A DNA stretch of 55,302 bases from a virus: positions 1 to 55,302 of the IMG/VR virus record IMGVR_UViG_3300021964_000086, one strand, 5' to 3'. Below are positions 6,117 to 36,088 of this stretch, piece after piece. The notes under the pieces were generated by a model. It was not told the origin of the DNA. It did no database searches and saw only the letters and a list, made by a program, of their open reading frames with translations. The translations under genes were made by a program, and so were the position numbers. The stretch's first letter is position 1; the number at the start of each line of letters is the position of its first letter.

Positions 6117-6336
6117 CTAACATCTCCTTTGATTCCCTCAGGTCATCACCCATGATTTCCTGAATAACTTTTTTCTTTTTCTTTTTCTTTCTATCTTTAT
6201 CCATAGCTTCTCTTTCAGCTTTTGCCGCCTTAGATTGTCTATAAGATACCTCTAGTGCTTCTTCTTCAGCTTTTACAGGATCTACTTTTTCAATGTAAAT
6301 AGATCCACCTGCGCCATATCTAACCTTGTTTGTCAT
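6103..6336 (-). CDS. Small basic phage protein
   Basis: 77 residues from MTNKVRYGAGGSIYIEKV. The start at 6336 is preferred over 6363 because GAGGAACAAA precedes it. The centre is strongly basic (KDRKKKKKKKVIQEI), flanked by acidic helical segments. Function unknown. It overlaps both neighbours by about 15 bases. Confidence 0.5.
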   Translation of the reverse strand: MTNKVRYGAGGSIYIEKVDPVKAEEEALEVSYRQSKAAKAEREAMDKDRKKKKKKKVIQEIMGDDLRESKEMLDEII

Positions 6337-6526
6337 TTTGTTCCTCATTGGCAGGTAATTCACTTATTAACTGTTCACAAACTTGTATCGCACCTGAAAT
6401 AGCGTTGAGATCAGCATTTGCTTTTCTAATAACATCTTGTGATGTTTTAATTCTATCTTCAACAACTATCTTGTTTTCATTCAAAGTTTCAAGTTTTTTA
6501 TCTAATGTTTCTTTTGTTATAGTCAT
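6320..6526 (-). CDS. Small coiled-coil protein
   Basis: 68 residues, almost entirely helical heptads (LDKKLETLNENKIVVEDRI, ADLNAISGAIQVCEQLISEL). No recognised family. It is the first gene after the UUCG hairpin at 6543-6560, and is followed by an overlapping small basic protein. A chaperone or assembly role is possible but unsupported. Confidence 0.45.
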   Translation of the reverse strand: MTITKETLDKKLETLNENKIVVEDRIKTSQDVIRKANADLNAISGAIQVCEQLISELPANEEQNDKQG

Positions 6527-6542
6527 AATATCTCCAAGTTAG

Positions 6543-6560
6543 GGGGACCCGAAGGTCCCC
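6543..6560 (-). terminator. UUCG-tetraloop hairpin
   Basis: Minus-strand stem GGGGACC / GGTCCCC closed by the very stable TTCG loop, just after the stop of the fibre-like gene at 6568-7239. There is no U-run after it, so it may attenuate or protect a 3' end rather than terminate fully. Confidence 0.65.
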
Positions 6561-6567
6561 TTATTCA

Positions 6568-7239
6568 TTAAGCTAATGTGCAACCTTGATTTGCAAGTAA
6601 GTACCATTGGCTGTTTGTGAACAGACAAATAGCAGCGTCACCTGCATCATTGAAAGTTAGTGTAGAACCTGAACCAAAGTTTGTTGGTGTCAATGTTCCG
6701 TCACCACCATCAGTTACCATTACTAGAAACTTGATCTGTCCTTCGACACCATCAGCTAGTGTTAATGCGTCTGCACCTGTGGTAGTAATCTCTGTGATTG
6801 CTGATACAACATCAACTGCACCTGCACCTGAAAGTGCCTGTGTTAAACCAAATACTGGTGTTGCGTTGATTTGTACTTGATCAGCAGAAGCGTCTACCAA
6901 TAAAGCTGTAGAGTAAGAATTAGTTTCTGCTCTAAGGTCTGTTTGACCACTTGCTTCGTTGATTACAACTTCTCTGTTTGCACCATCAACTCTAAATGCT
7001 TCTTCATCATCATTTGATACAATGAAGTCTGAGTCTGCCGCATCACTATTGAAAGTAATGTTTGAACTTGCACCTGGGTTGATTGTGACTGCTGTAGGTA
7101 TGTTCGCCATGAAACTGGCTACTGATATCTTTTTGTTAATTGGTGTTCCTGACGGATCATCAATAACATGTAGTAAGTCAGCACTTGCGATATTACCTGA
7201 TCCTAGATCAGTAAGTGCTGTAATTTTCTTATCTGCCAT
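6568..7239 (-). CDS. Structural or fibre-like virion protein
   Basis: 223 residues. The N-terminus MADKKITALTDLGSGNIA followed by DLLHVIDDPSGTPINKKI is a common module of marine phage structural or fibre proteins. The rest is Thr/Ser/Gly/Ala-rich and predicted beta-structured (NPGASSNITFNSDA, TLTFNDAGDAAICLF), with two Cys near the C-terminus. It is likely a decoration or fibre component exposed on the particle. Flanked by strong hairpins on both sides; an AATAAATA box lies about 100 bases upstream. Confidence 0.55.
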   Translation of the reverse strand: MADKKITALTDLGSGNIASADLLHVIDDPSGTPINKKISVASFMANIPTAVTINPGASSNITFNSDAADSDFIVSNDDEEAFRVDGANREVVINEASGQTDLRAETNSYSTALLVDASADQVQINATPVFGLTQALSGAGAVDVVSAITEITTTGADALTLADGVEGQIKFLVMVTDGGDGTLTPTNFGSGSTLTFNDAGDAAICLFTNSQWYLLANQGCTLA

Positions 7240-7310
7240 TTTTTACTCCTATAAACCCTCTCGGGAATGCTACTGGAAGTATGCATACGCTTTTCTTCCA
7301 TCATTGTTAT

Positions 7311-7331
7311 GAGGGCGAATAACTCGCCCTC
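7311..7331 (-). terminator. Hairpin after the gene at 7346-7927
   Basis: Stem GAGGGCGA / TCGCCCTC (8 pairs) with a five-base loop, 15 bases after the stop codon. Terminator or 3' stabiliser. Confidence 0.6.
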
Positions 7332-7339
7332 GATTAATT

Positions 7340-7347
7340 TATTTATT
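7340..7347 (-). promoter_or_regulatory. Possible late promoter box AATAAATA
   Basis: Sits at the end of the gene at 7346-7927 and would transcribe the gene at 6568-7239 with a ~95-base leader containing the hairpin at 7311-7331. Confidence 0.35.
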
Positions 7348-7927
7348 ATGCCGCTACTGTAATAGTACCTGCCGCTGTACCAATGCCAGCAGCATTAGTA
7401 ATTGTTGCGTTGGTAGTAGATGTAGCCACATCTTTGATTGTACCAGAGTTTAGTGATATTGCGTTAGCACCAATTGATAACACATCACCAGCATTTGTGG
7501 CTGCGTTTGCAGCTGCGATTGTTTCTCTAAATACTAATTCGTTTGTACCAGTACCAGAGATGTAATCTGCTGTTAAGTTTCTAGCTGGTGTATCATTTGT
7601 AATCGTTAAGTTTGGTGTACCACCTGATGTATTTACAACAACTGGTTCGTTAAATCTTACTCTTACATCAATGTTACCACCATCTGATTTATCAAAAGAT
7701 GTAGTAATAAACTCGATTTCTGTAATATCTGCAGCACCAAGAGAAGCTGATAGACCGCCAATAGCGACTAAAACTTCTTCGTCTGCTGAGGTATTGTCGT
7801 TTCCTGAAAGTGCTGAACCTGCTTCCCTTACCCAACCTTTAGTATTTGCAAAGACTTCTTTTTTCTCTGCTGTGGTCAAATTCTTAGGTTTGCTTTCGTC
7901 AGAATCACTTGCTCCCCATAGTCCCAT
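7346..7927 (-). CDS. Virion structural protein with beta-sandwich domain
   Basis: 193 residues. The N-terminal part (MGLWGASDSDESKPKNLTTA, EKKEVFANTKGWVREAGS) is a recurrent module in marine T4-like structural proteins. Residues ~65-165 resemble bacterial Ig-like/SwmB-type repeats (FDKSDGGNIDVRVRFNEPVV, LVFRETIAAANAATNAGDVL), and the tail is Ala/Thr-rich. Probably a surface decoration or adhesin-like component. A TATAAATA late box lies 40 bases upstream. Attachment role inferred. Confidence 0.55.
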   Translation of the reverse strand: MGLWGASDSDESKPKNLTTAEKKEVFANTKGWVREAGSALSGNDNTSADEEVLVAIGGLSASLGAADITEIEFITTSFDKSDGGNIDVRVRFNEPVVVNTSGGTPNLTITNDTPARNLTADYISGTGTNELVFRETIAAANAATNAGDVLSIGANAISLNSGTIKDVATSTTNATITNAAGIGTAAGTITVAA

Positions 7928-7967: not shown

Positions 7968-8558
7968 CTATTTATAACCAATCTTTCTTAGATCAGCAAT
8001 AGCTTGACTTGCTGTCTTATATTTGACTGGAATACCTTTGTTTTTCTTCCATTCTTTAATGTTTCTTCCATAATCATCAACTAGAACATTACCATTCGCA
8101 TAGATTTTTTTCTCTGCTCTACGCACTAGATGTATTCTACTTTGATCAGTCAGTCTTAGATTTCTTTGCAACCATAACAATTTACCCTTACGACTATTCT
8201 TATCATAAGGTGCATAGGCTGAAAGAATGTGTGGATTGTATTTCTCTATATATGACCAGAGTTTCTTACCATCTTTTGTCCATGGTAATGTCGGCCAAAA
8301 CATAGGATAGTTTTCGACAGGTGTCCATTTAGTATCAGTCATAGGTGCGGACAACCAATCTTGAGCGTCTTTATAACCTGCGGCCTGCATGGGACCTGGC
8401 ATACTAGGATCTTTTGACTTCAACTTAAACATATTTGCTATGCCTTGTGAGAAGTCACAAAGAACACCGTCCATATCACAGTAAATAGTAGGGAGACTAT
8501 CTGCTTCTTGGACTAATGTTATTCCTCGAATAGTCTCCGCAAAAGCGGAGTATTGCAT
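7968..8558 (-). CDS. HAD-superfamily phosphatase, virion-targeted candidate
   Basis: 196 residues. HAD motif I is DMDGVLCDF (Asp28 and Asp30), motif II the Ser in ILSAY, motif III a Lys in RKGKLLWLQR, motif IV NVLVDDYGRN. This is a nucleotidase- or polynucleotide-3'-phosphatase-like HAD core. The N-terminus MQYSAFAETIRGITLVQE|A looks like a capsid-targeting peptide with a V-Q-E|A site at residue 18, ahead of the enzymatic domain. It sits among virion genes, separate from the P-loop kinase at 12942-13766. Substrate unknown: a 5'-nucleotide or an RNA/DNA end are both reasonable. Confidence 0.75.
   Translation of the reverse strand: MQYSAFAETIRGITLVQEADSLPTIYCDMDGVLCDFSQGIANMFKLKSKDPSMPGPMQAAGYKDAQDWLSAPMTDTKWTPVENYPMFWPTLPWTKDGKKLWSYIEKYNPHILSAYAPYDKNSRKGKLLWLQRNLRLTDQSRIHLVRRAEKKIYANGNVLVDDYGRNIKEWKKNKGIPVKYKTASQAIADLRKIGYK
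7969..7976 (-). promoter_or_regulatory. Late promoter box TATAAATA
   Basis: Exact T4 late consensus, reading TTATAAATAGTT, 42 bases upstream of the ATG of the gene at 7346-7927; it overlaps the 3' end of the HAD gene. Confidence 0.7.
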
Positions 8559-8560
8559 TA

Positions 8561-9244
8561 TTAATCTATCGCCTTACTAATTGCTTTTCTTCTTTTGTGT
8601 AGAAATCTATCGCTGTCATCAACATCGCCATCATTATCAATGTCTTTGTCTTTTCTATCTTTAAACTTCTTCTTTACTGCCTTAGGTTGAACTTTGTCTA
8701 GTCCATCACCATCATCTGATTTATCATTTGTATTATCTTCTACATTGTATTTCTTACCTGAAACAACGAAAGTCTTCTCACCTTTTTCTCTAGCAGCTTG
8801 TAGTGCCTTTCCAAATGCATTACCTTCTTCGTCTTGTTTTGCTTCAGATGTGTAGAACATATCTTTGATTGTATCAACTAAAGATTTTACTTTTGCCATT
8901 TTAGCATTTTCAATCTCTTTGTTTAAATCTTCACCATGAACTTCGATGGGTGTTTTGCCTTTAGCATCTTTTTTGTTTTTATCTCGCATATCTGCAGCAT
9001 CATCTTCGTTCTTTGGTTTCTTACCTTGTTTCTTCATGTTAACAGCAATCGCAGCTTGTTGTGCTGGATTTGCAGCTTCTTGTTTTGCTTTTTCTGCTTG
9101 AACAACAACACTATCTTGAACTTCAGGTTTATCACCTACCATAGCATTTTGTTTGTTTGTGATATCTGCTACCACAGACGCTAGTGATCCTTTCTTTGGT
9201 TCTCCAAAGTAAGTAGGATTCCAGCCTAATGTTTTCTTAGTCAT
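8561..9244 (-). CDS. Virion-associated protein with calcium-loop-like motif
   Basis: 227 residues, highly charged and probably partly disordered. Two features recur in marine T4-like virion proteins: GNAFGKALQAAREKGEKTF (residues ~141-159) and, near the C-terminus, DKDIDNDGDVDDSDRF, an EF-hand/dockerin-like DxDxDGxxD loop followed by LHKRRKAISKAI. No catalytic motif. The N-terminus (MTKKTLGWNPTYFGEPK) differs from the capsid-targeting type. Two bases separate it from the HAD gene. Confidence 0.5.
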   Translation of the reverse strand: MTKKTLGWNPTYFGEPKKGSLASVVADITNKQNAMVGDKPEVQDSVVVQAEKAKQEAANPAQQAAIAVNMKKQGKKPKNEDDAADMRDKNKKDAKGKTPIEVHGEDLNKEIENAKMAKVKSLVDTIKDMFYTSEAKQDEEGNAFGKALQAAREKGEKTFVVSGKKYNVEDNTNDKSDDGDGLDKVQPKAVKKKFKDRKDKDIDNDGDVDDSDRFLHKRRKAISKAID

Positions 9245-9254
9245 TTTTGTCTCC

Positions 9255-10505
9255 CTAAAATTTTATCTTGCCTCTTTTGGGCACGATCTTTAATTTGTAT
9301 CTCACTATGTCCACAACTTCTGGTGGCATCATATAATTCAACATGTTAGCAATAGAATCTTTTTCTTCTCTACTACCTCTCATCATCTTTTCTATTCTGT
9401 CAATCACCTTAGGATCAACTTCTTTAAATTTACTTTTTCTGTTCTCATCTAGAGGAAATATTTCTAGATAAGGTATTAATTCTTCTTTGATAGAAGAAAA
9501 CTTCATTCCATGATTCACAACCAAACTTGCTTTCGCAGCTGATGATAGAACTGGTATATCTGCTTTCACAAGTGCCTGTAATTGTGGCTTACCCATTCTC
9601 TGCATCATTTTACTTAACTGTGTAAATCTTGCAGGTTGTAATTCTGTATGATGAACACCTCTTAATGGTTCATATTCTTTTTTCAATCTTTTGATTTGTG
9701 CGGATGTAAATTCAGTTATTAACATATCATTTTTATCTAATGCTTCATTTTTCTCACCTGTCTTATATGAGTATGCTGTTTTTAGATAATCAGTCGCTTT
9801 CGTAATTTTACCTTGCACCCATTCTTCAACATCACCGTCATCACTTACCATTCTTTCAATGCCGTCTAAGAAATGTCTCATCTGATTTACTTGGTTCATT
9901 ATCATATCTACTTCAGCAGCACCACCTGTATCATCACTATCAACTGCCTCACTATAAGTAGGAAACATTTTTCTCATTTTATTAGTGTCAAGAAATTGTT
10001 TTACACCCTTTTTCTTCATTGCAACAGCAGTTTTAGCATTAGGAGCATACACATGATCTTTAGTATCTTTAGTGTTTTTGTTATCTACTTTTGCAGTATT
10101 ACCTCTCACTAAAAATCTATCATTATCATATGCTTGTCCTTCTTGTCTTACTGTGTCTATTTGTTTTTTTAGATCAGCTTTATCAAGTTTATCTTGTGCC
10201 TTTTGAACAGGATCTTCTTGTTCTTCTAGTTCTTTTTTTAAATCTTTAATATTTCTTGCTGTTGTTCCAAATTGTTGTTTTGCAAACTTTAATAAGTTAG
10301 AATCAGAACCAGAAAATTCAATCGCATCATCACCACCAAAAGAAACTTTGTTCTTAGGTAGTTTTTTCATTCTAATACCAAATTTTTTAGCCGCCTGTGT
10401 TAATTTACTTTTAGGCACATCATCATATGATATATCAAAAACTGATACTGTTGCCTCATTCATTTCTCTGAGGATTTCTGCCATTGTTTTATTGTACTTT
10501 TGCAT
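9255..10505 (-). CDS. Putative internal virion protein, capsid-targeting-like N-terminus
   Basis: 416 residues, mainly helical. It starts MQKYNKTMAEILREMNE|A, with a good gp21-type site (M-N-E|A) at residue 17. A module near residues 200-250 (MNQVNQMRHFLDGIERMVSD, DYLKTAYSYKTGEK) recurs in other phage structural proteins. The C-terminal ~150 residues are a globular helical domain (KMMQRMGKPQLQALVKADIP, NMLNYMMPPEVVDIVRYK). Unknown activity. Its own TATAAATA late box is at 10522-10529. Confidence 0.5.
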   Translation of the reverse strand: MQKYNKTMAEILREMNEATVSVFDISYDDVPKSKLTQAAKKFGIRMKKLPKNKVSFGGDDAIEFSGSDSNLLKFAKQQFGTTARNIKDLKKELEEQEDPVQKAQDKLDKADLKKQIDTVRQEGQAYDNDRFLVRGNTAKVDNKNTKDTKDHVYAPNAKTAVAMKKKGVKQFLDTNKMRKMFPTYSEAVDSDDTGGAAEVDMIMNQVNQMRHFLDGIERMVSDDGDVEEWVQGKITKATDYLKTAYSYKTGEKNEALDKNDMLITEFTSAQIKRLKKEYEPLRGVHHTELQPARFTQLSKMMQRMGKPQLQALVKADIPVLSSAAKASLVVNHGMKFSSIKEELIPYLEIFPLDENRKSKFKEVDPKVIDRIEKMMRGSREEKDSIANMLNYMMPPEVVDIVRYKLKIVPKRGKIKF

Positions 10506-18937: not shown

Positions 18938-19943
18938 ATGAATATTCTTTTTTAGCTGCTTCGTCTATTTGTTGTAATATATCGTCTGTAAAATATTTTT
19001 CAGGATCAGAATAGATTGTTTTTGCATATTGTTTAGAGCCATCTGGCAATTCTATTCTTGTTGATACTTGTTTAAAGATACCATACTTACATGCTAAGTC
19101 TAGTAATCCATAGTATTTATCTAAACCTGTATCATAACGCAATCGAACATCAACCATCATATTTTCTTTTGATAATCTACTCTTTTGTGTTTTACAATGA
19201 ATAATATTACCAACAACCTCTGTGCCATCTTTTTCTTTTTTCTTAGAAAGATAAACAATTGTAGATGCGGCATACTTCAAACCAGAACCACCACCCATTT
19301 CTTTTGTAGGCATATAGGCACCCACAACATCATATGTGTGATTGGTAATAACCATTGGCACTTTTGCACGACCAAGTTTTAAAGTTAATACTCTAAACGC
19401 AGCCTTTAATACTTGTGCCCTCGTCATATCTCTCGTTTCTTTTCCGTCTGCTGTGTCTTCTACTTCTTTGGTTGTAGATAACATACCTAAACTATCTAGA
19501 ACTAATAACAATGGTTTTCTATCTGCTTCGTTTTGTTCCATGTATTTGTCTAACACAGTTAGGGATTGTGTTCTAAATTCTTGTACTGTGGTCACAGGCA
19601 TGATAACCATTCTTTCACTATCAATACCTCTATCTTCAATTAATTGTTTTGTTAATGCACTTTCACTTTCAAAATAGATAACACCTGCGTCTGGATTATT
19701 ATCTAAAAAAGATTTACACATACCCAAGACAAAGAAAGTTTTACCTGTTGCACTTTCACCTGCAAGAGCAGTAATCTTATTTGACGGTATGCCTCCATGA
19801 ATACTACCAGATAGTAGAGCATTAAACATATGAGAACCTGTGTTGATAAATGTATCGACATCACCTGCCTCTACACCCTCACTTACTAATGAGGCATATT
19901 CGTTTCCTGTTTCTTTAATTATCTGTTTCAGAAAGTCTGCCAT
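18918..19943 (-). CDS. uvsX: RecA-like recombinase UvsX
   Basis: 341 residues. Walker A GESATGKT (62-69), the catalytic Glu region VIYFESESA, Walker [13 protein letters not shown]-binding loop ([20 protein letters not shown]) and [11 protein letters not shown] identify UvsX. It coats ssDNA, helped by UvsY (43092-43520), to drive strand exchange and recombination-dependent replication. Slightly shorter than T4 UvsX (391). It overlaps the upstream small gene by 29 bases. Confidence 0.95.
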
Positions 19944-20115
19944 TGTCGTTCTCCTTTTGTGTTTTTTGTATCATGTATTGTATTTTTTCATATAGTTTTC
20001 CAACAGTTGTACATTCTTCAATACGAATAACACCTCGTTGTAAAGATGCTTGTATTATCTTTATAATTGTGTTATAATCTGCTACTGTTAGATTTTGTTG
20101 TTCTAGTTTGTCCAT
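19915..20115 (-). CDS. Small protein upstream of uvsX
   Basis: 66 residues if started at the second ATG ([15 protein letters not shown]). The first ATG (20127) directly abuts the -10 box at 20128-20133 and would lie upstream of the predicted transcription start, so I prefer 20115. Helical ([15 protein letters not shown]), no known family, no clear Shine-Dalgarno; the leader is only about six bases. Confidence 0.55.
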
Positions 20116-20127
20116 AAGTTCTTTCAT

Positions 20128-20156
20128 ATTATATCAGGTCTCCTATAGTTTGTCAA
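20128..20156 (-). promoter_or_regulatory. Extended -10 early promoter upstream of uvsX
   Basis: TTGACA at 20151-20156, 17 bases, extended -10 TGA-TATAAT ending at 20128, with the shared CCTGATA core. It overlaps the end of the methyltransferase gene and drives the small gene, uvsX and gene 41. Confidence 0.85.
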
Positions 20157-21267
20157 GGACTTTTTCATATATAGAATCCGCTATTGCTTTCATCATTAAC
20201 GGTGGTACCATTCTACCTATTCGTTCTGCCCTCTGATTCCATTTACCAGTTAACTTAAAATCGTCTGGCAAAGACATTATTCTTTTCAATTCACCCAAAG
20301 TTAGTTTTCGTGGTTCGTTCCAATGAAACGCCCCAGCATTTGTTTGCCCATTGCCCATTGCTGTTAGTGTAGGTGCTGGTGCATGTTGTGATACTCGTTT
20401 TAAATTGAAGTGATGACCCTTTGGATGATAGTCACCACCAGTTAAAACTTTGTCTGGATCTTTAGGCATCTTACTACCTGTGTCTTTCCAGTATGCTGTA
20501 TTCACAAATTTTTCAGTTAGTTCTTTTACTTCTTCAGAATCATATTCTAATCCTGCTAATGCTTCTTTCAAAGGTATAATCTTATCACTTGGTTCTGGAA
20601 ATACATTTTGTATTGTCATGAAATTTAAACCAACCTTTTCTGTAATATCGTTTCTTATACCAATAAAGATAACTCTTGTTCTTGTTTGAGATACACCATA
20701 GTTCTTACTGTTCATTACTTGCGAACAGACATCATAACCTATCTTCTCAAACTCATTTAATATTTTATTGTAATATTCTTTTGCTTCACCAATCGTTAGA
20801 CCTGCAACATTTTCTGCAACAATGACTTTTGGTCTAATATCATTGGCTACTCGTAGAAACTCAAAGAATAAGTCTTCAATGTTTTCTACCATCATACCAT
20901 CAGAGTATGATTTAGTTTTACCCCAACCATCAGAATGTTTACCACCTGATGAATGAGATAGTTTGCCTGCAACACTAAATGCACTACATGGTGGCGAACC
21001 ATCTAATATATCTATATCAGTTGTTCCTGCAATATCTGTAAAATCTTTACCAGATAGTTTTTTTATATCACCTGGTAGTATTGGTGTGTCTGGATAATTT
21101 TCTCTATATGTATTCTGTGCTTCTTCAACAAATTCGTTAATACAAAGTATCTTACCACCTGCCAATCTATAACCAGTAGAAGAACCACCGCCACCAGCAA
21201 ATGTAGAGATAACATTAAATCTTTCTCTCTTGCTTGATTCTACAACATCTTTTAAATTATACATCAT
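20143..21267 (-). CDS. DNA cytosine-C5 methyltransferase paralogue 1, altered cofactor pocket
   Basis: 374 residues with the full C5-MTase motif series: motif I STFAGGGGSSTGY (21-33), motif IV GSPPCSAFS with catalytic Cys94, motif VI AENV (151-154), motif VIII QTRTR (194-198), then a target-recognition region (~215-300), motif IX and X. Two key positions are unusual: the Gln that normally follows the catalytic Cys is Ser95, and the motif X Asn (GNAV/GNSV) is Arg352 in IGRMVPP. These line the cofactor methyl/sulfonium end, and both changes recur in the paralogue at 34970-36088. I infer use of an enlarged anionic SAM analogue. It is downstream of pol and HNH by 4-base overlaps. Confidence 0.9.
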   Translation of the reverse strand: MMYNLKDVVESSKRERFNVISTFAGGGGSSTGYRLAGGKILCINEFVEEAQNTYRENYPDTPILPGDIKKLSGKDFTDIAGTTDIDILDGSPPCSAFSVAGKLSHSSGGKHSDGWGKTKSYSDGMMVENIEDLFFEFLRVANDIRPKVIVAENVAGLTIGEAKEYYNKILNEFEKIGYDVCSQVMNSKNYGVSQTRTRVIFIGIRNDITEKVGLNFMTIQNVFPEPSDKIIPLKEALAGLEYDSEEVKELTEKFVNTAYWKDTGSKMPKDPDKVLTGGDYHPKGHHFNLKRVSQHAPAPTLTAMGNGQTNAGAFHWNEPRKLTLGELKRIMSLPDDFKLTGKWNQRAERIGRMVPPLMMKAIADSIYEKVLDKL

Positions 21268-21656
21268 ACAAAAAAACCTTCTAAAGTAAGTTGTGTTTCT
21301 TTTTTTATTCCTTTTCGTTGTTCGTGTAATTCATGACCTTTATGCATTTCTTTATTTTCGTATGTTTCTATAACATGACAATTCTTACAAAGAACTTTAC
21401 ATTTTCGTATTTCGTCTTTCAATTCTTTCATTCTTTCTTTGTGTAATGTAGTTCCATATTTTGGTATTCTGCTTACTAACACACCCATACCACTACCAAC
21501 AGGTCCATTCTTATACATGTAGTAAGATTTTTGAGTAGGATCTATGTGTGCAAAATCTAGAGCAAGACCGTGTTTATTATAGCCACAAACAGAACAACCT
21601 TTTAAAGTTTTATAATGCCAAAGTTTTCTAGTAAGTCTTTTTCTATATTCCATCAT
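21264..21656 (-). CDS. HNH-family endonuclease
   Basis: 130 residues. Zinc ribbons CSVCGYNK (C21, C24) and CKVLCKNCH frame the HNH core DFAHIDPTQK. HNH proteins cut or nick DNA. It sits between polymerase and the methyltransferase with ATGA overlaps on both sides, so it is translationally coupled and not a recent sloppy insertion. It could be a free-standing mobile endonuclease or a nuclease that discriminates DNA by its modification; sequence alone does not decide. Confidence 0.82.
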   Translation of the reverse strand: MMEYRKRLTRKLWHYKTLKGCSVCGYNKHGLALDFAHIDPTQKSYYMYKNGPVGSGMGVLVSRIPKYGTTLHKERMKELKDEIRKCKVLCKNCHVIETYENKEMHKGHELHEQRKGIKKETQLTLEGFFV

Positions 21657-32589: not shown

Positions 32590-33273
32590 CTATTTTATCG
32601 CAATAACCCCATAAAAATTGAAGTTTTGCCAGAAAACATGTAAATCCTTGAAACCTGCGTCTTCACACATTTTAAACATTTCTGTTTTTGTGTTTGGTTT
32701 CATCATATGTCGTAATTGGACCTCTTTGTCTAAAATCTCTGTATCTGTAAAATGTTGTCTTTTATAATCATAATACATAAAAGTCATCATATCTTGAATT
32801 TTAGGATTACAACTAAAACTTTTTTCTGAGAAGATAAACGCACCACCATCATTCAAACCTTGATAAATTTTCCAGATTGTTCCTGCTCGATCTTTAGGTG
32901 GCATAAATTGTAATGTAAATAAAGAAGTCACTAAACTAGCATTTTCTATATCACATTGTCTAATGTCTTCCATTTTATAATAAAGATTATTCCATTCTGA
33001 TGATACCAGATCCTCTGCGTGACCATCAGCAAAATCTGATTCTATCTCTATACCAACATAAGTGGCATATGGCACATGTTCATTATTTTGTTTGATCATT
33101 GCCTTAAGCATTTTACCAGAACTACAACCTAGATCAACAACATTGGTATGATCTTCAACAAAATACTTAGACATGCTTACGACATCATGCCAGAGATTAT
33201 TATAACCTCTTACTGATTTTTCTATGTGGTTATCAAAACCTTCGCCTGCTGTTGCAAATGTAAATTTCGTCAT
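32590..33273 (-). CDS. cmoA: CmoA-like SAM enzyme (carboxy-SAM synthase family)
   Basis: 227 residues from MTKFTFATAGEGFDNHIEKS. It follows E. coli CmoA along its length: EKSVRGYNNL, motif I VVDLGCSSGK, IENASLVTSLFTLQFMPP, KIYQGLNDGGAFIFSEK, YYDYKRQHF and a C-terminal WQNFNFYGVIAIK. CmoA converts SAM and prephenate to carboxy-SAM, used by CmoB for tRNA cmo5U. No CmoB is present here. The equivalent of CmoA Arg199 aligns with Glu184, but an Arg lies one helical turn on (188). The start at 33273 is preferred (AAGG site, ATGA overlap with the PP-loop gene). I infer it supplies carboxy-SAM to the phage DNA methyltransferases. Confidence 0.82.
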   Translation of the reverse strand: MTKFTFATAGEGFDNHIEKSVRGYNNLWHDVVSMSKYFVEDHTNVVDLGCSSGKMLKAMIKQNNEHVPYATYVGIEIESDFADGHAEDLVSSEWNNLYYKMEDIRQCDIENASLVTSLFTLQFMPPKDRAGTIWKIYQGLNDGGAFIFSEKSFSCNPKIQDMMTFMYYDYKRQHFTDTEILDKEVQLRHMMKPNTKTEMFKMCEDAGFKDLHVFWQNFNFYGVIAIK

Positions 33274-34070
33274 ACTGCCTTTCCCCAATACTGACATATT
33301 CCTGCTACGGACTTATATCTGTTATTTGGATTTATTCTACTATTATTTAGCAATGTTTCAAATCGCTTGTCTATTCCTGCACCTAATTGTAAATTAATAT
33401 GTTTCTTGAAATTAAACTTCTTAAATTCAATAAAGTCATTTACGACATGATGCTTCTGGAATGGTTCATTCAACTCATACCAATTCTTACTGTAAAAGAA
33501 ATCTCTTACTGCTTTCGATAGATATGGTGTAATAAATTTTTTATTGTGTTTATCTGCAACACCTTTGTGCCATAGATAACCAGCAGACTTATCTGGTAAA
33601 AAATAATCATTTCTAAATTCATCAAACTTTTCTTTTGTCTTGCCTTTTGTGTAATGTAGTATTGCTCTTTTTGATATACCATAATAACCATCAGCTGCCC
33701 AACCACTCAATACATCATTTTGTTTTATCTCTGGATACAAATACATAAATGGAAATACACACTCAAAATGTGTTTTCTTTTTACAGTTATAATCTTTTGC
33801 TAATCTAAAAAAGTCTTCTTCTAAATTATTCGTTGGTACCACTTTCAATGTAAATGGCCACTTAAATATTTGTGCCACCTCAGCAGCCTTATCACTATCA
33901 TAACTAGAATTTGTATCTAAACAAAAAGAATAGGCATGAACTTTCTTTCCTAACTCGTGTGCTGCAAAAGCAACACTTAAACTATCTACACCACCAGATA
34001 GTAATACAGCAACTTCATCTTCTTTTGATTGTGCTTCGATAACTCTTTTTAGTATTTGTCTAATCACCAT
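33270..34070 (-). CDS. Asparagine-synthetase-type PP-loop ligase A
   Basis: 266 residues. PP-loop SGGVDS at 25-30 (ATP pyrophosphatase), then VLSGWAADGYYG, matching the second Asn-synthetase signature SGxGADE..GY. There is no N-terminal glutaminase domain. The family activates a carboxylate as an acyl-adenylate and transfers an amine. A Cys/Lys-rich stretch (YNCKKKTHFECVF) lies between. It overlaps the CmoA-like gene by four bases and ligase B by one. I infer a role in amidating a DNA-borne or small-molecule carboxylate. Confidence 0.8.
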   Translation of the reverse strand: MVIRQILKRVIEAQSKEDEVAVLLSGGVDSLSVAFAAHELGKKVHAYSFCLDTNSSYDSDKAAEVAQIFKWPFTLKVVPTNNLEEDFFRLAKDYNCKKKTHFECVFPFMYLYPEIKQNDVLSGWAADGYYGISKRAILHYTKGKTKEKFDEFRNDYFLPDKSAGYLWHKGVADKHNKKFITPYLSKAVRDFFYSKNWYELNEPFQKHHVVNDFIEFKKFNFKKHINLQLGAGIDKRFETLLNNSRINPNNRYKSVAGICQYWGKAV

Positions 34071-34963
34071 TAAAACCCTGGAAGTGTTGCTCCACTATTA
34101 ACTAATTTTTTAACTGCGGCATTGCGTGAATTTGCACCAGTCATTAACATTAATTTTTCTTCCACAACTTCAAATATTCCTGTGCCGTATTCCATTACTG
34201 TTCTTTTTACTTTGTTTGGTTCATAACCCATGTATTTTATTACTTCTTTTGGAAAAGTTTTTTTATGTGGTTCTGCATAACTATAATGTAAATCATTAAC
34301 CCACCTTAATATATCTGGATTTTTAAAAGCCATAATTGGGTTTGCACCAAGTTCATTAGCAACTTCTAAAAACAAATGTCCTGAACCTTTTTTTGCACCT
34401 TTTGATTGTATTGCCTCTGCGTAATAATTTTGTTTAAGAATTGTTTTAGCAGTATCTTTATCTACATTATGTTCTTTCATTGCTTGAGGTGTTAATCTAT
34501 ACATAAAGGTTTGTAGAGAACCTAGCAGTGTATCTGCACCATCGCCTTGAATTAAATCAACACCTTTAACATCAATTTTTTCAAGACACAATTTAAATGT
34601 TAAATAATATACTACATTAAATAGTGTTGTGATACTTTGATGTCCTTTAATTAAATGTAAGTTATCCATTACTTCTTCTAATGTGGTCAAAACAAGTTTA
34701 TTATTAATACCTAATTTTTCTGCTGTGTCTTGTGACACTTTAACATCATGAGTATCCTTAACTACACCTACTGTAATTGAATCTTTTAAACCAAAATATT
34801 TTTTTGCTATACAACCCAACAACATTGAATCAACTCCACCTGATAACATTAAGACAGGAGGTTTGTTTTTAAATTTTCTATCTCGATTAATAATAAATTT
34901 CAAATCATTAATCAACTTTATGGCACCTTCTTCGTAAGTATCAAATTTAATTATTTCTCTCAT
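34070..34963 (-). CDS. Asparagine-synthetase-type PP-loop ligase B
   Basis: 297 residues. PP-loop SGGVDS at 41-46, second signature LIQGDGADTLLG (Asn-synthetase SGdGADE-like), no glutaminase domain. It is a distant paralogue of the neighbouring ligase A. The two may act in series or as a heteromer. An AGGAG site lies at the end of the methyltransferase gene seven bases upstream. The exact acceptor and amine donor cannot be read from sequence; amidation of carboxymethylcytosine is my inference from the operon. Confidence 0.8.
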   Translation of the reverse strand: MREIIKFDTYEEGAIKLINDLKFIINRDRKFKNKPPVLMLSGGVDSMLLGCIAKKYFGLKDSITVGVVKDTHDVKVSQDTAEKLGINNKLVLTTLEEVMDNLHLIKGHQSITTLFNVVYYLTFKLCLEKIDVKGVDLIQGDGADTLLGSLQTFMYRLTPQAMKEHNVDKDTAKTILKQNYYAEAIQSKGAKKGSGHLFLEVANELGANPIMAFKNPDILRWVNDLHYSYAEPHKKTFPKEVIKYMGYEPNKVKRTVMEYGTGIFEVVEEKLMLMTGANSRNAAVKKLVNSGATLPGF

Positions 34964-34969
34964 TTTGTT

Positions 34970-36088
34970 TTATAATCTCCTTAAAACATTCTCATATATG
35001 TTGTTAGATAATGCTTTCATCATTAGTGGTGCAACCATACGACCAACTCTTTCTGCTTGTTGATCAAAATCCCCTTGTAATTTAAAGTCATCTGGTAAAC
35101 CCATTACTCTCTTTAATTCTTTAATTGTTAATTTACGATTACTGTCATAATGAAACACACCAGACAGACCTTTCTTTTGCCCTGCCTGTGTAAGTGTTGG
35201 GCAAGGTAGATCAGGTGCTGGTCGTATCATATTAAACATAGATTGTTTAGGATTGATATCTATAAATTCAGGATCACTAGGTTTTCTATGTTTGTCTGGA
35301 CTGAAAGGTAATAACTCAATCCACTTCTTTTGAAAACTACCTTGCACAAAATCTAATAACATTTGTACTTCTTCAGGATCGTTTTCTAAATCTTCTATTG
35401 CTTCTCTTAATGTTGGTTGTTTTGATTGTGGTTCTGGATATATGATACTATCCATATTCATAAAGTTAATACCAACTTTCTCCATGATATCATTTCTAAC
35501 TGCAACGAAGAAACATCTCTTTCTTGCCTGTGGTGTTCCATAGTCTGCGGCGTTTAACACTTTACCAACTGCTTCATAACCAATACTATCAAATTCATTT
35601 ACAATACGATTAAAATATTCTTTTGCCTTACCCATGGTGATACCCGCAACATTCTCACCAATGATAACTTTTGCCTGAACATCTTTTGCAACTCTTGTAA
35701 ACTCAAAGAATAGGTCTTCAATGTTATCAACTTGTTTATCGTCTGAATACTTTTTAGTTTTATCCCAACCCTTTTCTCTTTTGCCTGCAACACTAAAAGC
35801 ACTACAAGGTGGCGAACCATCAAGTATATCTAACTCGCCTTGTTGTATTCCTGCGGCCTTGAGTAAATCATGACCAGTCAGTTCTTTAATATCGTTAGGT
35901 AATATTGGCGTATCAGGATAATTAGATTTATATGTATCAATTGCACTTTCAACAAATTCATTAACTGCAAGTATATTACCACCTGCAAGTTTATAACCTG
36001 TTGAAGACCCACCACCTCCTGCAAATGTTGATATTACAGTAAATAGTTTGCGATCTGCTGATTTATATACATCTTCTAAAAAATACAT
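34970..36088 (-). CDS. DNA cytosine-C5 methyltransferase paralogue 2, altered cofactor pocket
   Basis: 372 residues: motif I STFAGGGGSSTGY (20-32), motif IV GSPPCSAFS with catalytic Cys95, motif VI GENV (144-147), motif VIII QARKR (187-191), target-recognition region ~210-300, motif X VGRMVAP with Arg350 where nearly all C5-MTases have Asn. Ser96 replaces the usual Gln. In M.HhaI the equivalents are Gln82 and Asn304; in M.MpeI changing that Asn (N374K) allows carboxy-SAM use. First gene of the operon with two amidating ligases and the CmoA homologue. The target region differs from paralogue 1, suggesting another recognition site. The ATG is at the predicted +1 (leaderless). Confidence 0.92.
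   Translation of the reverse strand: MYFLEDVYKSADRKLFTVISTFAGGGGSSTGYKLAGGNILAVNEFVESAIDTYKSNYPDTPILPNDIKELTGHDLLKAAGIQQGELDILDGSPPCSAFSVAGKREKGWDKTKKYSDDKQVDNIEDLFFEFTRVAKDVQAKVIIGENVAGITMGKAKEYFNRIVNEFDSIGYEAVGKVLNAADYGTPQARKRCFFVAVRNDIMEKVGINFMNMDSIIYPEPQSKQPTLREAIEDLENDPEEVQMLLDFVQGSFQKKWIELLPFSPDKHRKPSDPEFIDINPKQSMFNMIRPAPDLPCPTLTQAGQKKGLSGVFHYDSNRKLTIKELKRVMGLPDDFKLQGDFDQQAERVGRMVAPLMMKALSNNIYENVLRRL

Follow-up and report, generated by a model that had tools for sequence, protein, structure and literature searches.

Two methyltransferase genes and a cmoA operon in a marine phage

The stretch of DNA that we analyzed (the window) comprises positions 1 to 55,302 of IMG/VR record IMGVR_UViG_3300021964_000086. 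This is a T4-like virus record, and Pelagibacter phage HTVC008M is a relative (capsid, 95%; polymerase, 77%). The genes discussed here are as follows.

20143..21267, minus strand: MTB, predicted CmoX-type DNA cytosine C5-carboxymethyltransferase B (374 aa; PF00145, E = 1e-58; 61.2% identical to SpCmoX)
21264..21656, minus strand: HNH endonuclease, overlapping the start of MTB (PHROG HNH models, E = 1e-16)
32590..33297, minus strand: CmoA homologue, predicted carboxy-SAM synthase (235 aa; TIGR00740, E = 9e-37; 53.5% identical to SpCmoA; PDB match, YecO/CmoA)
33270..34070, minus strand: LIG2, CmoY homologue, AMP-forming amide ligase without a glutaminase domain (266 aa; PF00733; 48.2% identical to SpCmoY)
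34070..34963, minus strand: LIG1, AMP-forming amide ligase of a distinct family (297 aa; PF00733, E = 2e-10)
34970..36088, minus strand: MTA, predicted CmoX-type DNA cytosine C5-carboxymethyltransferase A (372 aa; PF00145, E = 7e-54; 51.6% identical to SpCmoX)

Both methyltransferase genes are read from the minus strand, and stops occur throughout the plus-strand reading. MTA, LIG1, LIG2, and CmoA form a tight operon, with MTA first, in which neighboring genes overlap or nearly touch; cmoA itself overlaps the CmoY-like LIG2 gene. The operon has the gp46 side on one flank and a peptidase gene on the other; MTB lies approximately 11 kb from CmoA, between the DNA polymerase and uvsX. The HNH endonuclease beside MTB is probably a homing endonuclease and is outside the modification pathway. 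In HTVC008M, the positions of the MTA cassette and MTB (the gp46-peptidase and polymerase-uvsX slots) are filled by genes with a DruA domain (PF14236; L392:6117-7259 and 19536-20660), and the gp46-peptidase slot also holds a JmjC/cupin gene.

A cytosine carboxymethylation system has already been described, and the window is a further member of it with two CmoX enzymes and an additional ligase. In the one paper on phage chemistry of this kind that a literature search turned up, Yang et al. (Nat Commun, Dec 2025; PMC12783734) reported 5-carboxymethylcytosine (5cxmC) in the DNA chemistry of Synechococcus phage S-B43. In that phage, CmoA is a carboxy-SAM (Cx-SAM) synthase that supplies Cx-SAM to SpCmoX, SpCmoX uses it to carboxymethylate cytosine within GC motifs, and CmoY ligates glycine to 5-carboxymethylcytosine, so that the phage DNA contains 5gcxmC (PMC12783734). 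In the crystal structure of CmoX with Cx-SAM (PDB code 8YF3), Arg350 occupies the position of M.HhaI Asn304 and contacts the carboxymethyl group/carboxylate; the R350N mutation abolishes activity, and the wild-type enzyme works with Cx-SAM only and does not accept SAM (PMC12783734). A basic residue that replaces the motif X Asn also admits carboxy-SAM in M.MpeI N374K (cited in PMC12783734). IMG/VR v4 was among the databases screened in that study, which lists 5,615 Arg-type candidates (PMC12783734); since the window is an IMG/VR-type record, its proteins may be among them. Neither two CmoX enzymes with differing target-recognition domains nor an extra AMP-forming ligase was found in the text of PMC12783734.

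MTA and MTB are clear members of PF00145/TIGR00675 (Pfam and NCBIfam; E = 7e-54 and 1e-58, respectively), and both have the C5-methyltransferase fold and the SPPC catalytic motif. The first-pass annotation of this DNA had singled out an Arg at motif X and a Ser after the catalytic Cys in both enzymes, and we found these residues and their numbering to be correct. MTA contains SPPC95-S96-AFS, ENV (residues 145 to 147), and ERVG-R350-MVAPLM, and MTB contains SPPC94-S95-AFS and ERIG-R352-MVPPLM (thus PPCSAFS in both, with VGRMV in MTA and IGRMV in MTB). The top PDB match of MTA was 8YF3 (E = 1.7e-114), and Arg350 of MTA and Arg352 of MTB both align with Arg350 of that structure. Residues F25, E47, F48, D69, and C98 of SpCmoX are identical in MTA and MTB, and both enzymes keep every residue to which the 8YF3 paper assigns a cofactor or catalytic role. 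By analogy, the question of whether this Arg contacts the cofactor is answered by the published cocrystal of the homologue.

The other S-B43 proteins also have counterparts in the window. CmoA is 53.5% identical to SpCmoA over 95% of the protein. Its TIGR00740 score (127 bits) falls below the curated cutoff of 193 bits, which is missed by every phage CmoA tested, including the proven SpCmoA (116 bits). LIG2 is 48.2% identical to SpCmoY over 94% and carries the PP-loop SGGVDS.

MTA and MTB are 64% identical to each other in their catalytic parts but 33% identical in the target-recognition core. Identity to SpCmoX in this core is 53% for MTB and 32% for MTA. Thus, MTB probably reads GC, like SpCmoX, while MTA probably reads a site other than GC. 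Dinucleotide depletion was considered as a clue to the MTA target and set aside: the low CG value of the window (0.61) is shared by its relatives and is therefore uninformative. Tandem pairs of Arg-type methyltransferases lie directly before cmoA on seven other contigs (L185, L186, L298-L301, and L306), indicating that a doubled CmoX is common in these phages.

Arginine at motif X and the presence of cmoA

The first-pass annotation had also proposed that Arg at motif X correlates with a linked cmoA. We assessed this in 273 distinct viral C5-methyltransferases, drawn from IMG/VR scans and 19 named phages. Arg-type enzymes were found 154 times on loci with cmoA and 67 times on loci without it, and the corresponding counts for Asn-type enzymes were 1 and 42. 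In the one Asn-type case with cmoA (L362), the contig also encodes an Arg-type methyltransferase. Clustering at 65% identity yielded 33 Arg and 41 non-Arg clusters. cmoA was present on the locus in 31 of the 33 Arg clusters (Fisher P = 4e-15, not corrected for ancestry), and in the remaining two, from Erwinia and Yersinia jumbo phages, it was elsewhere in the record. At the level of whole records, then, all 33 Arg clusters had cmoA and 38 of 41 non-Arg clusters lacked it, which bears out the proposed correlation. When 36 phage contigs with Asn-type methyltransferases were searched over their whole records, no cmoA was found.

The 67 cmoA-less Arg-type enzymes were considered as counterexamples and rejected as such, because most of their contigs are too short; those checked are either short or do not extend to the cassette slot. 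One of these contigs (L393) reaches the peptidase gene but not the slot immediately beyond it. The two that are long enough have cmoA approximately 16 kb downstream, next to another Arg-type methyltransferase. The CmoX open reading frames of the Erwinia and Yersinia jumbo phages (L217:157-2268 and L218:157-2241) seemingly contain an intein, inserted at the catalytic Cys, and the residue after the Cys, following the apparent insert, is Lys.

Outside the Arg clade, motif X usually has Asn, as the first-pass annotation stated: this residue occurs in 43 viral C5-methyltransferases, 41 of which have Gln after the Cys. None of the 221 Arg-type sequences has Gln at the latter position, where Ser, Ala, Val, or Lys is found instead, and Ser is also present in Met-type enzymes without cmoA. 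The Arg-types with Ala, Val, or Lys and the cmoA-less Met-types with Ser refute Ser as a second marker. Accordingly, of the earlier suggestion that an Arg together with a smaller Ser denotes a natural carboxymethyltransferase, the Arg part stands, in agreement with Arg350 of SpCmoX, and the Ser part does not.

A strict equivalence between Arg and cmoA is ruled out by two Staphylococcus phages. In PhiSepi-HH3 (L190:5651-6658), cmoA adjoins a C5-methyltransferase with PCQ and, at motif X, VVGGVIN without an Arg. In vB-SscS-F1 (L191:6461-7468), cmoA lies one gene from a C5-methyltransferase that has PCQ and VVGGVIN and also lacks the Arg; the gene between them encodes an Asn-synthase-like ligase. 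It is possible that these phages represent a second origin of cytosine carboxymethylation.

Two further phages carry cmoA in other settings. Aeromonas phage HJ05 carries cmoA close to a gene for a phage DAHP synthase (PF00793; L193:2645-3382 and 6257-7420), and the record contains no C5-methyltransferase. DAHP synthase catalyzes the first step of the shikimate pathway, which leads to prephenate; HJ05 may thus boost the cosubstrate of CmoA. In Alcaligenes phage Afa-NA1 (L192:4917-5669 and 8142-9461), cmoA is approximately 2.5 kb from a D12-type N6-adenine methyltransferase, and no C5-methyltransferase was found anywhere in the record.

In a tree of 74 representatives, whose root is a drawing choice, most Arg-types group in a single clade, and the Arg label has to change at least three times. 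The clusters are therefore not fully independent, and because the root is arbitrary, the order of gain and loss is not strict. Nested in the Arg clade is a C5-methyltransferase from the Methylophilales phage Melnitz (L003:4010-5227), a T4-like phage related to the window. The Melnitz enzyme shows 43% identity but has Leu at motif X and Pro after the Cys; its gene is overlapped by one for a Tet_JBP oxygenase (L003:5208-6194), and cmoA was not found in the whole 141-kb genome. Melnitz apparently represents a switch of modification chemistry inside one family. A Tet_JBP model matched neither the window nor the control genomes, and its lack of a match in the window therefore does not speak for absence. 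Three other enzymes within the Arg clade (L361, L368, and L373) have Asn at motif X, Gln after the Cys, and no cmoA. Together with Melnitz, they have lost both Arg and cmoA, indicating that the residue and the cofactor gene change together. Joint loss more than once in one family makes the motif X residue usable as an annotation rule, with the limits that Ser is not diagnostic and that the Staphylococcus phages lack the Arg. A separate reading of the raw sequence confirms that natural carboxymethyltransferases can be recognized by a single residue of motif X.

Predicted pathway and the role of the second ligase

The two marine phage enzymes most likely attach a carboxymethyl group, rather than a methyl group, to DNA cytosine, an activity that we infer from homology. 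We assign a probability of roughly 0.92 to the whole explanation, namely, that MTA and MTB are CmoX-type carboxymethyltransferases, with phage CmoA supplying carboxy-SAM and LIG2 carrying out amidation. It is based on identity to the proven S-B43 set, the tight operon, the conserved residues, and the co-occurrence of Arg and cmoA. In this pathway, phage CmoA would convert SAM and host prephenate to carboxy-SAM, assuming a prephenate supply in a SAR11-like host. The Cys of MTA or MTB would attack cytosine C6, as in any C5-methyltransferase, and the carboxymethyl group would be transferred to C5; the motif X Arg would bind the carboxylate and thereby select Cx-SAM over SAM. LIG2 would then activate the new carboxylate with ATP and join it to an amine, presumably glycine or a similar one. 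The resulting amide-hypermodified cytosine may shield the phage DNA from host restriction.

It is very improbable that MTA and MTB are instead ordinary SAM-using 5-methylcytosine methyltransferases in which the Arg is a neutral clade marker. The intact general fold and catalytic motifs and the restriction of the Arg-type largely to one clade fit such enzymes; however, the homologue SpCmoX rejects SAM and needs this Arg (PMC12783734), and cmoA is in the records of all Arg clusters but not in those of the nested non-Arg relatives. Least probable of all is that phage CmoA serves tRNA cmo5U modification, unrelated to the DNA methyltransferases: although bacterial CmoA is a tRNA-modification enzyme and phage copies are often annotated as tRNA methyltransferases, a CmoB model had no match in the window record (a fragment), the cmoA and CmoY-like genes overlap, cmoA goes together with Arg-type methyltransferases across phages, and SpCmoA supplies Cx-SAM to SpCmoX (PMC12783734).

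Within the CmoX-type explanation, the second ligase has a less certain place. LIG1 is only 23% identical to SpCmoY. Several positions that are conserved in the LIG2/CmoY family are fixed to other residues in LIG1, which lacks the family-specific CmoY residues and is not a close SpCmoY homologue. The AlphaFold2 model of LIG1 has a pLDDT of 86.5 when built from 25 sequences and 54.5 with one homologue, and its best PDB folds are beta-lactam synthetase (1mc1; E = 3.1e-10) and AsnB (1ct9; E = 3e-9). The model places LIG1 in the AMP-forming amide synthetase superfamily, with the C-terminal fold of asparagine/beta-lactam synthetases and a PP-loop.

LIG1 was found at twelve IMG/VR loci. A limited scan with two short peptide patterns did not find it in bacterial genomes, and the phage collection contained no relatives beyond weak Listeria matches. 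Three contigs have the gene order LIG1-LIG2-CmoX-CmoA (L307-L309), and another (L310) carries all four genes; the genes around LIG1 on six short contigs (L311-L316) are unrelated phage genes. In a sister of the window (L007), MTA, LIG2, and CmoA are 97, 98, and 95% identical to those of the window, yet there is no LIG1 between them. In another relative (L011), the ligase is 50% identical and is flanked by a methyltransferase and a CmoA that are 92 and 89% identical. The missing LIG1 in the former and the replaced ligase in the latter make the ligases look like exchangeable modules.

Three roles for LIG1 can be weighed. LIG1 might add a nonglycine amine directly to the 5cxmC made by one CmoX, acting in parallel with LIG2 rather than extending its product. 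We consider this parallel role a tentative possibility. It is favored by the conserved residues that LIG1 has of its own where the CmoY/LIG2 family fixes others and by the swapping of ligases between near-identical cassettes, as in L011; however, LIG1 occurs with LIG2, and never instead of it, in all five contigs with a whole LIG1 cassette (the window and L307-L310). Rather doubtful is a two-step amide chain, in which LIG2 would attach glycine or a similar amino acid to 5cxmC and LIG1 would activate the free carboxylate of this amino acid and attach a second amine to it, yielding a peptide-like cytosine that the two CmoX enzymes would direct to two different sequence contexts. An equally doubtful alternative is that LIG1 has no part in cytosine modification and is a phage PP-loop ligase that lies in the cassette by chance. 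Its absence from L007 and its position among unrelated genes on the short contigs are in keeping with a chance association, whereas its place next to LIG2 and CmoX/CmoA in two lineages with differing gene orders (the window and L307-L309), and on the same contig as these genes in L310, argues against one. For Pelagibacter-phage-like ocean phages, LIG1 is a concrete candidate to carry out a cytosine hypermodification of a new chemical type.

Comparison with known systems

Canonical HhaI/Dcm-type C5-methyltransferases have their fold and catalytic motifs in common with the window enzymes but differ in having Asn at motif X, Gln after the Cys, and no cmoA. M.MpeI N374K resembles the window enzymes in its basic residue in place of the motif X Asn; in contrast, its Lys was engineered into an otherwise canonical enzyme with a CG preference, whereas the Arg in the window is natural and the residue after the catalytic Cys is changed too. 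The closest likeness is to S-B43, in which CmoA, CmoX, and CmoY are also encoded by adjacent genes, the window proteins being 48 to 61% identical to them. Arg350, SPPC-S, F25, E47, F48, D69, ENV, and QxRxR of S-B43 CmoX are all conserved in the window. The window differs from S-B43 in its gene order (MTA-LIG1-LIG2-CmoA versus CmoA-CmoY-CmoX), in its Pelagibacter-phage-like genome, in its two CmoX paralogues with unlike target-recognition regions, and in its second ligase family, LIG1.
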